IMG/VR virus record: IMGVR_UViG_3300050343_000090
Location: 1-41,168 of that record
DNA: 41,168 nucleotides
Reading direction: 5' to 3' (one strand)
Source of the DNA: a virus
Position numbers and translations under genes: made by a program. Position 1 is the first letter of the stretch; each line of letters begins with the position of its first letter. Under the pieces are notes generated by a model that saw only the letters and a program-made list of their open reading frames with translations, was not told where the DNA came from and searched no databases. This document shows positions 7,587 through 19,236 of the stretch, in pieces.

Positions 7587-8534
7587 TTAGTTGATTGCCT
7601 CTTGTTGCATTAAACCTTTTGCAATAGCAATTTTTTGATCTCTAGTTAATTCAACCTTATCTTCTAAAAGACTTGCTAAATTTTCTGGACTATAAATTGA
7701 TAATGCCATTGAACTACTTTCATTCAACACACTTTCATTTAAAGGTACTCCGAGTTTATCTGCAAGTAATTTAGCTTGGTCAAAGTATCTGTAAGATTTT
7801 AAACCTAGTCTTAATTTACTCATCTTATCTTCAACATAAGAAAATAATTGTTGATGTGATAGTTTTACATTTTCAACTGCTTGGTTATACATTTGAAAAA
7901 CTTTAATTGTATCTTCATCAACTTTAAACTGTCTTGAATGACAATAAGAACTTCCTATTGTCCAAAGTTTAAAATCATTTTCCCATTCGTCAGTATGATA
8001 GAGAGTGTTTCCTGTACTATCATTCCTACTTCCATAACCCAAAAACTTTTCAACTTTACTTTCCATGTCATAATAAACAGGATTTCTTTTTGAATAATCA
8101 TCTTGAAGTTTTAATTTATAATCTGCGTCAAGACCTTTTGCATTAATCTCATCTCTATAATAAGACCTTGCAAAATCTCTATCATCTAAATCAAACTTAA
8201 CATGTTCTTCGTTTTCGGATTGGTACTCTCTACCCTCATCATCAACTTTAGTGATTGGTTGCGTGAAGTAAAAACAATTATCTTCATACAACTCGCCACC
8301 TGCACGATTATATTTTTGTGTCATTCTTCTAATCGTGTCAATATCTTCTTGAGGTTGATGTGCTCTTACAACTTTTTCTGCAAGTGATTTTGTAATCTCT
8401 CTTGCATGGTTGTAATTTTCTATTGCTTTTAGATGTGCTTGTCTTTTTGGGTTATCTTCACTTTCCCAATGTGCTTTAAAAACATCTGCAATAGTTTTTC
8501 TTTTTTCTGCATTTAGTGTTAGTCTTTTAGTCAT
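7587..8534 (-). CDS. Early protein of 315 aa, unknown function
   Basis: Largest early-block gene, intact. I take the start at 8534 (MTKRLTLNAEKRKTIADV) and not the in-frame ATG at 8564, because GCGAGG lies five bases upstream and a TATAAT box follows behind it. The protein is charged and mostly helical. Its C-terminal part (DQAKLLADKLGVPLNESVLN) and ending (ELTRDQKIAIAKGLMQQEAIN) look globular. No catalytic motif, zinc site or membrane span is evident. Its size and promoter suggest a dedicated early role, possibly host interference, but nothing in the sequence shows which. Confidence 0.75.
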   Translation of the reverse strand: MTKRLTLNAEKRKTIADVFKAHWESEDNPKRQAHLKAIENYNHAREITKSLAEKVVRAHQPQEDIDTIRRMTQKYNRAGGELYEDNCFYFTQPITKVDDEGREYQSENEEHVKFDLDDRDFARSYYRDEINAKGLDADYKLKLQDDYSKRNPVYYDMESKVEKFLGYGSRNDSTGNTLYHTDEWENDFKLWTIGSSYCHSRQFKVDEDTIKVFQMYNQAVENVKLSHQQLFSYVEDKMSKLRLGLKSYRYFDQAKLLADKLGVPLNESVLNESSSMALSIYSPENLASLLEDKVELTRDQKIAIAKGLMQQEAIN

Positions 8535-8538
8535 TTGA

Positions 8539-8561
8539 CCTCGCTTTCTATATTTATTATA
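8539..8561 (-). promoter_or_regulatory. Early promoter/leader for the 315-aa gene
   Basis: TATAAT on the minus strand (8561-8556), then AAATATAG, AAAGCGAGG (RBS at 8544-8539) and ATG at 8534. Same architecture as the two leaders near 6.8 and 7.5 kb but without GGGCAC. No clear -35 at 16-18 nt. Confidence 0.5.
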
Positions 8562-8564
8562 CAA

Positions 8565-9040: not shown

Positions 9041-9103
9041 TGTCGCACCCTGGACAAATTGTCGCAGCGTCAATTTGTTTCTTGACTTGGTCAAGATTGA
9101 CGC
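9041..9103. repeat. TGTCGCA direct repeats and long hairpin between divergent promoters
   Basis: Two TGTCGCA copies (9041, 9060) are followed by an inverted repeat: GCGTCAAT / ATTGACGC (9067-9074 with 9096-9103) enclosing CTTGAC / GTCAAG (9081-9086 with 9090-9095). It lies between a minus-strand promoter (8997-9025) and a plus-strand promoter (9114-9142), the expected place for a shared operator. Confidence 0.7.
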
Positions 9104-9113
9104 ACCATGCATC

Positions 9114-9142
9114 ATGACATACTTTTGCCACAATCCTATATT
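9114..9142 (+). promoter_or_regulatory. Sigma70-like promoter for the structured RNA
   Basis: ATGACA (9114-9119), 17-nt spacer, TATATT (9137-9142). Transcription would start near 9149, immediately before the first stem of the folded RNA. Confidence 0.6.
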
Positions 9143-9148
9143 ATTATA

Positions 9149-9500
9149 TATACTCAGCCTCATTTGAGAGTTTATCGCTGAAACAAAACTATAAACTCTA
9201 ACGGGACTTGCACCGGCAAAAGCAAGTAGGATTTAGATCCTCCTGGAAGATAGCCATTGGAGGATCCTGATCCCTGGTCCAGTGGAGAGTAAGTTCAGCC
9301 TTGCTTTAGAACTGGTAAACTGGACCTGGGATCAGTCGTTACGCGATAATATAGTGAGTCTATAGGATACCCGCAAGGGTTGAGAGCTGGGTCCTCACTA
9401 CCGATCGGCTGATGTACTAACTTAACCTAAATCTCTAATTGATCATTAGAGACTATGACCTGAAAGGATGGTTGGTTAATCTCTGGTGCTGATCCAGTTT
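9149..9500 (+). ncRNA. Large structured RNA (standalone ncRNA or leader of the GP88 gene)
   Basis: No convincing ORF covers this stretch, and it looks richer in G+C than the AT-rich genes around it. Consecutive, non-overlapping helices can be drawn by eye: AGAGTTTAT/ATAAACTCT (9167-9175, 9191-9199); ACTTGC/GCAAGT (9206-9211, 9222-9227); GATCCTCC/GGAGGATC (9236-9243, 9259-9266); TGATCCC plus GGTCCAG with CTGGACC plus GGGATCA (9268-9282, 9320-9334), capped by AGTTC/GAACT (9292-9296, 9309-9313); TAGTGAG/CTCACTA (9352-9358, 9394-9400) enclosing ACCC-GCAA-GGGT, a GNRA tetraloop (9369-9380); TTAACC/GGTTAA (9422-9427, 9474-9479) enclosing TCTCTAAT/ATTAGAGA (9432-9439, 9445-9452). A promoter precedes it and no terminator follows before the GP88 gene. 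I do not recognise an Rfam family. Confidence 0.75.
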
Positions 9501-9541
9501 AGAATGATTATAAAGTAAAAATTATTATGAAAGTAAAAGCA

Positions 9542-9625
9542 CAAGCACCAAGCCACAAGCTGCGACAAATTGTCGCAGGACAATTTGGTAAATTGACAAA
9601 GCCTCAAGCGTCAAGCCGCAAGCTG
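9542..9625. repeat. CAAGCNN heptad arrays A and B with palindrome
   Basis: CAAGC begins at 9542, 9549 and 9556, then at 9605, 9612 and 9619: exact 7-nt phase in each triplet. Array A runs directly into CTGCGACAA/TTGTCGCAG (9560-9577), and array B into TGCGTCA. Both lie between the folded RNA and the GP88 start, probably in its 5' UTR. Confidence 0.85.
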
Positions 9626-9687
9626 CGTCAAAGTGTACAATGTTTTGTACCGGGTCGACGTGTTAAGAATCGATTCAGGAGGAATAT

Positions 9688-10286
9688 ATGAAAATAAAAG
9701 ACGCATTAAAAATAACAGACAGCTTTACAAAAACGTCTAAGATGCCTGGACTTATCTTACAGCCTGCCAGCCTGGGAATGCAAAACAGGATGGAAGCTTG
9801 CTCAGGTTCCTGGCACGCCTTGCTTTAGCTGCTATGCTAAAAAAGGAAATTACACAGATACCCAGCAATCAAAGCTGCACAGTATAGAAGACTGGAAGCA
9901 ATCAATCACCCGCTATGGGTTCAAGCAATGGCTGCTAAAATTAAAAATCAAAAATGGTTTAGATGGCATGACGCCGGAGACGTACAGAGCAGCGAGCATA
10001 TGCAAAAAATTTTAGAGGTTTGCAGGTTAACACCTGAGACCCGTCACTGGTTACCAACTCAAGAGCGGCAGTTCTTGCCAGCACCTGAAGAGGTCCCTGC
10101 TAATTTGGTGATAAGATTATCAAGATCTAAAATAGATGGGCCAGCTCCAGCGCCTGGAGCCATGAGTCAGGCGTCACTACTGGTGAAGCTCGAACATGTC
10201 CAGCCCCTGATCAAAGCGGTAAGTGCGGCAGCTGTAGACAATGCTGGGATCCTGAAGTAAAAGCAGTTGTATACGGTAAACACTAA
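9688..10286 (+). CDS. GP88-family protein (frameshifted)
   Basis: Composite gene of about 198 aa with frameshifts near 9745, 9920 and 10190. Start is supported by AGGAGGA four bases upstream. Recognisable parts: KTSKMPG near the start, LPAWECKTGWKLAQVPGTPC, FSCYAKKGNY, then WFRWHDAGDVQSSEHM, RHWLPTQERQF, and a C-terminal CGSCRQCWDPEVKAVVYGKH. The order of Cys clusters plus the WHDAGD motif matches the phage 'Gene product 88' family as I remember it; the Cys residues suggest a metal or iron-sulfur site. Biochemical role of the family is unknown to me. It is flanked on both sides by CAAGCNN arrays and sits behind the structured RNA, with which it may form one transcription unit. Confidence 0.78.
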
Positions 10287-10453
10287 TGCACGTTTTTAAA
10301 CATCCAAAATATTATGAAGAGCTGCGTAAGAAACGCAAAAAATTTCAACAAGAAGAAAGGGAAAGAAATGCCAAGGAACAAGCAACAAGCACGAAGGCTC
10401 AAGCAGCAAGCGTCAAGCCACAAGCTGGAGACTCTGATAAACCTGATTCATGA
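10286..10453 (+). CDS. Small basic protein partly encoded by the heptad repeat (55 aa)
   Basis: ATG overlaps the GP88 stop (TAATG). The N-terminal half is strongly basic and helical (MHVFKHPKYYEELRKKRKKF), while the second half (EQATSTKAQAASVKPQAG) is simply the translation of an eight-unit CAAGCNN array. Three heptads equal seven codons, so the array keeps the frame open. Either a repeat has invaded the 3' end of a real gene, or the ORF is read-through into the array. Function unknown. Confidence 0.55.
   Translation: MHVFKHPKYYEELRKKRKKFQQEERERNAKEQATSTKAQAASVKPQAGDSDKPDS
10372..10427. repeat. CAAGCNN heptad array C (eight units)
   Basis: Eight 7-nt units in perfect phase at 10372, 10379, 10386, 10393, 10400, 10407, 10414 and 10421. 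Six start with exact CAAGC; the first is CAAGG and the fourth GAAGG. It lies inside the coding end of the 55-aa ORF. Confidence 0.88.
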
Positions 10454-10477
10454 TTATTGGGCCTTAGATAATGGTTA

Positions 10478-10639
10478 CAAGACTCAAGCGTCAAGCCACA
10501 AGCTGCGTACACAGAGAATACACCTGCGACAAAATGTCGCGCGGTATAATGCCTCGGACTACAAAGACTCAAGCAGCAAGCCACAAGCGTCATAACCCAT
10601 GACGCAAGGCTCAAGCTTCAAGCCACAAGCAACAAGCTC
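10478..10639. repeat. CAAGCNN heptad arrays D and E with TGTCGC palindrome
   Basis: Units at 10478 (CAAGA), 10485, 10492, 10499; then 10570, 10577, 10584; then 10605 (CAAGG), 10612, 10619, 10626, 10633, all on 7-nt phase within each group. Between D and E lies CTGCGACA/TGTCGCG (10524-10541), an imperfect palindrome of the same type as at 9560. The last units overlap the 3' end of the VRR-NUC gene. The rest of 10454-10617 holds no convincing gene. Confidence 0.87.
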
Positions 10640-10920
10640 CCGGATTCTTTCTCCTCATAAAGTTTTGGAAGGTTACAAGAGCCATCCAAAACTAGGATAA
10701 ATGTATTGTCAGGATGTTTCACATGAAACGCAATTTGGTGTGGAGAGAGGGTAACTTTATTTGTTTTTGTATATTTTAATTCAACAGTGAAAAAGTGGCC
10801 ACTATTATTATACCCCAATAGATCGGGAGTACCAGGAACGCTAAGGTTTTCAATCCTAATCCAGGATATTTGATTAAGATTTTTTTTAACATTTGCATAA
10901 AATTTGGTCTCAGGTTTCAA
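10618..10920 (-). CDS. VRR-NUC type nuclease (100 aa)
   Basis: Intact small nuclease of the VRR-NUC branch of the PD-(D/E)xK superfamily. The catalytic pattern is visible: GTPDLLGYNN (metal-binding Asp), then FFTVELKY (E-x-K), followed by LSPHQIAFHVKHP, where the Gln helix is typical. Such stand-alone VRR-NUC proteins in phages are expected to cut branched or replication-intermediate DNA. The final residues (SGSLLLVA) are encoded inside CAAGCNN array E, so the repeat defines the protein's end. The gene is the last of a minus-strand pair with 10930-11154 and converges on the GP88 transcript. Confidence 0.85.
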   Translation of the reverse strand: MKPETKFYANVKKNLNQISWIRIENLSVPGTPDLLGYNNSGHFFTVELKYTKTNKVTLSPHQIAFHVKHPDNTFILVLDGSCNLPKLYEEKESGSLLLVA

Positions 10921-17282: not shown

Positions 17283-19236
17283 TTACTTTATTTCACCCCA
17301 GTTAGGACCAGATTCATAGTCTACTTTATTTGGAACTTCTAAGTCTACTGCATTTTCCATAATTCTTTTATTTTATCAGCTTGCTCTTCTGATTCAATAG
17401 AAAAGTCTAACTCATCATGTATTTGTATGTGAGCCTAAGATATCCTTCTTTATATAAATCAACCATAGCTTTTTAGTCATATCAGCTGCACTACCTTGAA
17501 TTAATTTATTTAATGCTTTGTATGTAAAAGCTCTACGTGACCATTCTTATGCCAATAGTTTTTCTAGGATTTGTTTTTTATCTTTAATAAATTACCATCA
17601 TCATCTTTTAACCACTCACCCATCTCTTGAAGTTCTTTCATTCGTTCTTCATCTTCTGGTGGTACATATTTACCCCAATCACTACCTTTTAATATAGGTT
17701 CATACTTTGGAAATCTACAACGTCTACCTAGTAAAGTTTTTATTTGACCTTTGTTTCTGCTGCGTTCATAACTTTATTCATTAGTTGTTTTACAAATGGA
17801 ACTTTACCATGATACTTATTAAATAATTCATCAGCTTTCTCTTTTGTTAACACCTAATTCATTCTTAGTTTTGCTTTACCCATACCATAAAATAAACCTA
17901 AGTTAATTGTCTTAGCTTCTGTTCTAGGTATCTCTGCCATCTCTGCAACAATTTTGTGAAAGTCTGTTGATGGATCTTCTTCATATGAATCTGCAATTGT
18001 ATTTACAGATGGTAATTCAAATCTTAATGCATAGTGTGCAACTAATCTTGGTTCCTGTTGCGAGTAATCAAACGTACCCCACTTGCAACCTTCTTCAGGT
18101 ATAAATAAACTGATCTAATTAATGGGCCTGTATCTGGATCCCTTGCTGGAATCTGTTGTAAGTTAGGATTAGAATAACTAAATCTTCCTGTAACTGTACC
18201 ACCATCATCAGATCTAATTTGATTAATGTCTGCATGTATTCTACCACAATGTTCATGTTTAATAATAGTATCAATAAAAGTTGTTCTAACCTTGTTTATT
18301 TTTCTAGCTTCTGCTATCATACTTAACTACAGGATGTTTATGATTTGTAATAAAGTTTTTAGTAAATGAAGGTGTTTTTGTTTTTCAGTTCTTCATAAGG
18401 TAAATTCAGTTTGTCAAAAGCTTTGGCAATACTTCTGCTGCCCATATCTGAACTTCTGGTTCCTGTTTCTATTTTTATTTGTTGTAGTAGGTTTTCTTCT
18501 TTTACTGCCATTGCTTTTTTCAATTGATGAGCTTTCTCATATCTACCCTCACACCTAGGTGGCGCATATCGACCAGACAAGGAAAAAGATCCGTCTCAAG
18601 ATTAAATACATTTTGTAAGATTTTCTTCAATAATTATTTTTTTAAAATATTGCCAAAGTTCTAAAGTAAGTTCAGCATCTGCTTCAGCATACTCTCCAAC
18701 TTCCATAGCAGGTAATCTCCACATATCAGCTTTAGGATCTAGTCCTCTTTCTTTTGCAGCTTTATTAATTTTGCTTCGTTCTTACCTTTTTTAAATAAGC
18801 CCAAGACAAAGTATTTAGTGTATAAGAGAATCTATTTTCATCTATAAGACTGGCTGCAATCATAGTATCTGTGATTAAACCATTGATTTTTATACCTAAA
18901 TTACGTATCCAACATACGTCGTACATTGCATTATGAAATATTTTTGTAGCAGGTGAGGCACATACATCTGTAAACCAATCTAAAACTTTTTTACGATCCA
19001 TGTTAGGACCTTCTTCATGTGCAATTGGAAATAAGCTTTCCAACCATCTACAGCTACAGCTATACCTACAACTTCACCACTACCTATGATGGCTCCTGAA
19101 CCCAGTTTCTTTAAGTTTGGATCACGTGTCTCTAAGTCAATTGCTATCTCATCATGCTTAGATCTTAGATCTGGAAATTCTTTTGGTTGTAACCATTCTG
19201 TTTGTGGTATATCATTTCTTTTTACCCATGTCTTTC
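17283..19236 (-). CDS. DNA polymerase, family A, with 3'-5' exonuclease (heavily frameshifted)
   Basis: About 650 codons across at least eight frameshifts. Exonuclease motifs: IAIDLETRDP (ExoI), FHNAMYDVCWIRN (ExoII), YAEADAELTLELW (ExoIII). Polymerase motifs: TGRFSYSNPNLQQIPARDPD, GTFDYSQQEPRLVAHYA (motif A), TEAKTINLGLFYGMGKAKL (motif B O-helix) and a C-terminal HDELDFSI (motif C). The gene ends with ESGPNWGEIK. The organisation matches small phage PolA enzymes without the 5'-3' exonuclease. The start is uncertain; the first residues I can place are NDIPQTEWLQPKEFPDL, just behind the DUF3310 stop. It follows DUF3310, helicase and primase in one operon. Confidence 0.9.

Follow-up and report, generated by a model that had tools for sequence, protein, structure and literature searches.

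A structured RNA of about 240-640 nt is encoded on the transcript strand at a fixed locus of HTVC023P-type pelagiphages, and it consists of two 5' pseudoknots followed by a multibranch domain with about one to seven exchangeable hairpin modules, many of which stand on a clamp stem. The member described here spans positions 9153-9497 of the window, that is, of the whole 41,168-nt stretch of IMG/VR virus record IMGVR_UViG_3300050343_000090 that was analysed. The first-pass annotation had regarded 9149-9500 as a large structured RNA of unrecognised class with no convincing ORF in about 350 nt. Strong covariation bore out the structured RNA, no ORF of at least 40 aa was found inside 9149-9500 on the + strand, and the window sequence fits no known class. 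The idea of a single conserved class was dropped when the modules proved exchangeable: the RNA is a mosaic, and one module type carried by relatives is already in Rfam.

Fold and covariation of the RNA

The region 9149-9500, for which a density of complementary arms above chance had been claimed, folded far better than shuffled sequence: its MFE was -117.1 kcal/mol (z -3.54), and one of 100 dinucleotide shuffles did as well. The array domain at 9226-9497 alone reached an MFE of -95.8 (z -3.53), and none of 200 shuffles was as good. In the MFE fold of the full region, 9153-9160 is joined to 9408-9415, at odds with the 5' pseudoknots that covariation supports; when the pseudoknot region was left out, the remaining RNA folded as a single clean closed multibranch domain. 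At the gathering thresholds of Rfam 15, the window gave no match, including to GOLLD, ROOL, HEARO and IMES, with which a comparison had been proposed, and to the group I intron and RNase P. The e-value mode of Rfam returned only weak, chance-like matches to miRNA and snoRNA for the window, and a weak Ocean-VII match on the opposite strand of the relative L199, found with relaxed thresholds, was also counted as chance-like. ARAGORN and Rfam found no tRNA or tmRNA in the window.

PK1 (9155-9199, + strand) pairs CAGC 9155-9158 with GCUG 9177-9180, crossing the helix of AGAGUUUAU (9167-9175) and AUAAACUCU (9191-9199), and its loops are CUCAUUUG and an A-rich segment. Both stems show compensatory changes; the first occurs in relatives as CAGC/GCUG, GUGC/GCAC, GGCC/GGCC and UAGC/GCUA. 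In PK2 (9201-9226, + strand), which 66 loci hold, the stem is CUUGC 9207-9211 with GCAAG 9222-9226, and the loop CCGG 9213-9216 pairs with ACGG 9201-9204 upstream. The PK2 stem changes with covariation. In general, a loop of the form CCNN pairs with an NNGG shortly before the hairpin; the combinations observed are UG/UA, UU/AA, CU/AG and AC/GG, of which AC/GG contains a single A.G mismatch. Judged from these compensatory changes, PK1 and PK2 are two consecutive predicted H-type pseudoknots. An alignment of 24 distinct sequences was tested against the named structure of 22 pairs: 95.8% of cells were paired compared with 85.3% in shuffles, and 13 pairs had changed on both sides compared with 4.8 in shuffles, none of 500 being as good. 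With the partners shifted by one column, pairing fell to 29-42%. Some phages carry other 5' leaders, for example GGGACAACUUCUGGUUGUG.

The clamp hairpin lies at 9267-9335 on the + strand (CUGAUCCCUGG...CCUGGGAUCAG) and corresponds to the long nested helix that had been placed at 9268-9334. It reads CUGAUCCC-U-GGUCCAG...CUGGACC-U-GGGAUCAG in the window, and its general form is CUGAUCCC-U-GG...CC-U-GGGAUCAG with interchangeable apical modules above. Among 246 unique homologous hairpins, the first 11 positions of the clamp are nearly invariant, position 9 is a U.U mismatch in 228, and positions 12-18 stay paired while their identity changes. In 178 cluster representatives, the pairing at positions 12-18 was 0.97, 0.96, 0.94, 0.97, 0.91, 0.92 and 0.72, compared with 0.88, 0.91, 0.72, 0.48, 0.41, 0.69 and 0.40 in the shuffled control. 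The pseudoknots and the clamp hairpin thus covary above shuffled controls; covariation was among the checks proposed for this RNA. G.U pairs outnumber A.C pairs by 194 to 19, and therefore it is the + strand that folds and whose fold is under selection.

A chance fold or an assembly artefact could be suspected from a window fold z of only about -3.5 and from the broken GP88 frame in this contig. Set against these points are 204 loci with homologous hairpins among the matches listed, the array in a cultured phage genome and the strong covariation; the covariation refutes this explanation, and we give it a negligible probability.

Modules and their exchange

The multibranch array domain (9229-9495, + strand) has GGAUU 9229-9233 and GAUCC 9491-9495 as its closing stem in the window. 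A similar closure was found in 28 of 47 related domains, compared with 8-13 when the first 11 bases were shuffled. Four hairpins stand in a row inside it: hp0, the clamp hairpin, y and F, all on the + strand. Module hp0 (9236-9266; hairpin GAUCCUCC...GGAGGAUC, taken from the fold) has the same or a similar counterpart in L057, L074, L158, L189, L194, L201 and L225, and the apical module of the clamp hairpin (9279-9324) recurs in L040, L152, L002, L186, L080 and L138. The linker module y (9338-9413, also from the fold) contains the GNRA tetraloop hairpin noticed at first reading, which is real (CCCGCAAGGG, loop GCAA, 9370-9379). Module y gave no match in the relatives fetched, and since the GNRA loop lies within this window-specific module, it is not a conserved hallmark. 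Module F (9414-9489; GUACUAACUUAACCUAAAUCU...GGUUAAUCUCUGGUGC) has homologues at ten other loci, within the clamp in some and outside it in others. In another linker family, UCAUUAUUGACUGUG...CGUAGCAUAGUGACUGAUCA, the rim is invariant, and a covarying stem carries a hypervariable insert. Just past the 3' end of the RNA, a conserved AT-rich near-palindrome, TTTAGAATGATTATAAA, occurs at 9491-9520 and at 24 loci.

Clustering of the 295 clamp hairpins gave 178 clusters, 114 of which have a single member, and 54 apical modules also occur in linker position. Exchange was examined in 75 pairs of loci with a common module of at least 90% identity and with both GP88 proteins available. In 14 of the 75 pairs, the GP88 proteins were less than 60% identical (background median 61%), and some of the modules were 100% identical. 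Because modules up to 100% identical adjoin GP88 proteins of only 52-63% identity, modules evidently move between phage lineages; as far as sequence comparison goes, they have been swapped while stems and clamp were preserved. Recombination at the shared clamp sequence would be the simplest route of exchange. Two phage contigs of Pelagibacteraceae single cells, L237 (2400-2560) and L238 (near 1120-1165), carry single modules upstream of GP88 without the CUGAUCCC clamp, and therefore modules may also travel independently of the clamp.

Relatives, neighbouring genes and promoters

When IMG/VR was scanned with the 3' arm of the clamp alone, 65 stretches were obtained, most of which had the same hairpin arms with different interiors and flanks, and the same interior recurred between different flanks. 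A gapped pattern for the clamp hairpin gave at least 120 matches, 63 loci matched a pattern taken from the 5' part of the window's RNA, and arrays with one to four clamp hairpins were present at 204 loci among the matches listed. The cultured Pelagibacter phage HTVC027P has one array, on the reverse strand at about 17,670-18,180, between gp35 and gp34/gp33. Because the proteins of the window are collinear with those of HTVC027P, we assign the window to an uncultivated pelagiphage, predicted to be of the HTVC023P/HTVC027P type. The array is followed by GP88 at 136 of 146 loci and preceded by a divergent gp35 homologue at 110 of 156, and TerS is within reach at 48 of 49; the locus is fixed and its module content is variable. 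No match to the clamp-hairpin pattern was found in 84,980 prokaryote genomes. A host origin of the modules was also considered: a search with the HTVC027P RNA in 61 genomes, all from the genus of one Pelagibacteraceae single cell, gave nothing significant, a weak result obtained without a positive control.

In the window, the upstream neighbour is the gp35 homologue (7587-8564, - strand; tblastn to HTVC027P gp35), whose fold gave no useful match in the PDB. The downstream neighbour is GP88 (PF17338 by Pfam match; 9688-10260, + strand). It is frameshifted here in its N-terminal third and intact in relatives such as L057, and the frameshift could equally be real decay or a sequencing error. The model of the GP88 homologue L057:633-1229 (pLDDT 92) aligned best, and weakly, with the radical SAM enzymes viperin, QueE, BtrN and lipoyl synthase (Z 5.1-5.6). 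This weak structural alignment, together with the invariant cysteines of GP88, suggests that GP88 may be a reduced radical SAM-like enzyme. In phage HTVC033P, judged from gene spacing, GP88 stands in a tight operon without the RNA, which disfavours GP88 as an obligate protein partner.

The RNA had also been described as lying behind its own sigma70-like promoter. Candidate promoters on the + strand at 9114-9154 (matches 9114-9142 and 9125-9154, 10 of 12 positions) were found by consensus scan, which is weak on its own at 5 matches in the window against 2.3 expected. In relatives, a TTGAC-N15-20-TATA promoter stands directly upstream of the RNA at 34 of 60 loci. By eye, the promoter often overlaps a CTTGAC...GTCAAG inverted repeat. 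At 8 of the 60 loci, no promoter was found, and an ORF on the same strand immediately precedes the RNA. A separate TTGACA...TATA promoter with CAAGC repeats usually lies between the array and GP88. In the window, the stretch from the RNA to GP88 contains runs of CAAGCNN heptad repeats (9535-9630), as does 10372-10640 further downstream, and such repeats precede promoters in most relatives. The palindrome GCGACAAATTGTCGC recurs at 9053-9066, 9562-9576 and 10526-10540, and these copies are possible operator sites. The genes that directly follow the array in HTVC027P, gp33 and gp34, make up an expression cluster of their own in the transcriptome, with high levels at 6-9 h (PMC12753301); the main text of that paper makes no mention of non-coding or intergenic RNA.

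Known systems and the proposed role

Flavobacterium-1 (RF02976) is, like the array RNA, marine and without assigned function, and it occurs as one module inside such arrays. Rfam treats it as a separate sRNA, whereas with about 121 nt it is one exchangeable part only. Membership was taken as a covariance-model score of at least 58.9 bits, which was reached at L177, L040, L179, L218, L222, L223, L229 and L236; the window had no match. HTVC027P and seven other loci carry the module at 83-104 bits. A phage contig of the Flavobacterium single-cell genome SCGC AAA160-P02 (L236, 360-780), which was reached through GP88, holds an array with a variant clamp, Flavobacterium-1 and GP88. Since Flavobacterium-1 there adjoins a clamp hairpin and a GP88 of 71% identity to that of L057, it belongs to the phage contig, and the Rfam name probably comes from this single-cell genome. 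The contig would stem either from such a phage with a flavobacterial host or from a pelagiphage that was sorted together with the cell.

GOLLD, ROOL and other large ornate RNAs are likewise large, highly structured, non-coding and found in phage genomes. Each of these RNAs has one conserved architecture, represented by a model in Rfam; no such model matches the window, and to our knowledge these RNAs have not been described as exchanging modules on a clamp. ToxI RNAs of type III toxin-antitoxin systems are pseudoknotted and phage-related and provide a precedent for RNA decoys, but the array RNA lacks a tandem repeat of pseudoknots, and no toxin gene was recognised beside it. Neither Rfam nor the open-access papers searched yielded a description of the complete modular RNA; the Flavobacterium-1 module is known, and within that scope the modular build as a whole appears to be new.

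With confidence a little short of even, we believe that this is a stand-alone, trans-acting RNA that displays swappable binding or decoy modules, and we favour this reading over a leader or a DNA-level array. A discrete RNA acting in trans is suggested by the conserved frame, the free exchange of modules and the fixed single locus; the promoter at 34 of 60 loci, the GP88 without RNA in HTVC033P and the separate expression cluster of gp33 and gp34 in HTVC027P (PMC12753301) also speak for it. Against it are the loci where the RNA follows a same-strand ORF and the lack of a target match for the HTVC027P RNA in the 61 genomes, which come from a single genus of its host family. No terminator was found between the RNA and GP88, in agreement with the first-pass annotation, and read-through into GP88 is therefore possible. 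That annotation had allowed for either a leader or a stand-alone RNA, and the leader has become less likely, since GP88 usually has a separate promoter after the RNA. A structured 5' leader or riboregulator of GP88 (and gp34), controlling mRNA stability or translation, would agree with the missing terminator, with GP88 downstream at nearly all loci and with the unusual expression cluster common to gp33 and gp34 (PMC12753301). We nevertheless consider it unlikely: besides the separate promoter and CAAGC repeats, extra ORFs intervene, HTVC033P has GP88 in a tight operon without the RNA, and the module content varies freely whereas GP88 does not.

In REP/BIME elements and integron attC sites, imperfect inverted repeats whose interiors vary likewise form arrays. 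A mobile hairpin array of this or the MITE kind, with hairpins that a recombinase or transposase moves and that are selected at the DNA level, the RNA being incidental, would account for alternating inverted repeats, exchanged interiors, identical modules in diverged phages and modules without clamp in L237 and L238. We regard it as quite unlikely, since the array keeps to a single fixed locus without REP/BIME or MITE scattering (one array in HTVC027P, one in the window), no linked recombinase, RAYT or IntI was seen nearby, no integron integrase was recognised among the neighbours examined, and the 5' pseudoknots covary and follow a promoter. The G.U bias points to one strand as well, although folded ssDNA would also tolerate G.T. 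PeSLs are short stem-loops that promote modular shuffling in intergenic regions of T4-type phages, with early promoters between the stem-loops of their cassettes. Conserved short stems, variable content, adjacent promoters and exchange between lineages could also describe a recombination-hotspot cassette of that kind, whose main effect would be genome shuffling around promoters. Here, in HTVC027P-type phages, structured modules inside one RNA are exchanged with their structure preserved while the flanking gene order is unchanged. We consider this explanation improbable.

For the trans-acting RNA, we infer that its transcription would take place in the early to middle phase of infection and often start at a promoter of its own, that the 5' pseudoknots may protect or anchor the RNA, and that it would serve in trans as a scaffold, its apical modules binding or titrating RNAs or proteins of the host or of rival phages. 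Recombination at shared clamp sequences would diversify the module set, as expected if targets differ between SAR11 strains. Possibly, and more doubtfully, the RNA is combinatorial, its cassette-swapped modules on one scaffold serving as phage-specific binders or decoys against host or competitor factors. What the modules bind could be tested directly in the cultured pair of HTVC027P on HTCC1062. SAR11 are the most abundant marine bacteria. If our reading is true, Flavobacterium-1 of Rfam would be part of a larger phage RNA, and SAR11 phages would provide a natural case of an RNA evolving through the exchange of structured domains on a common connector.
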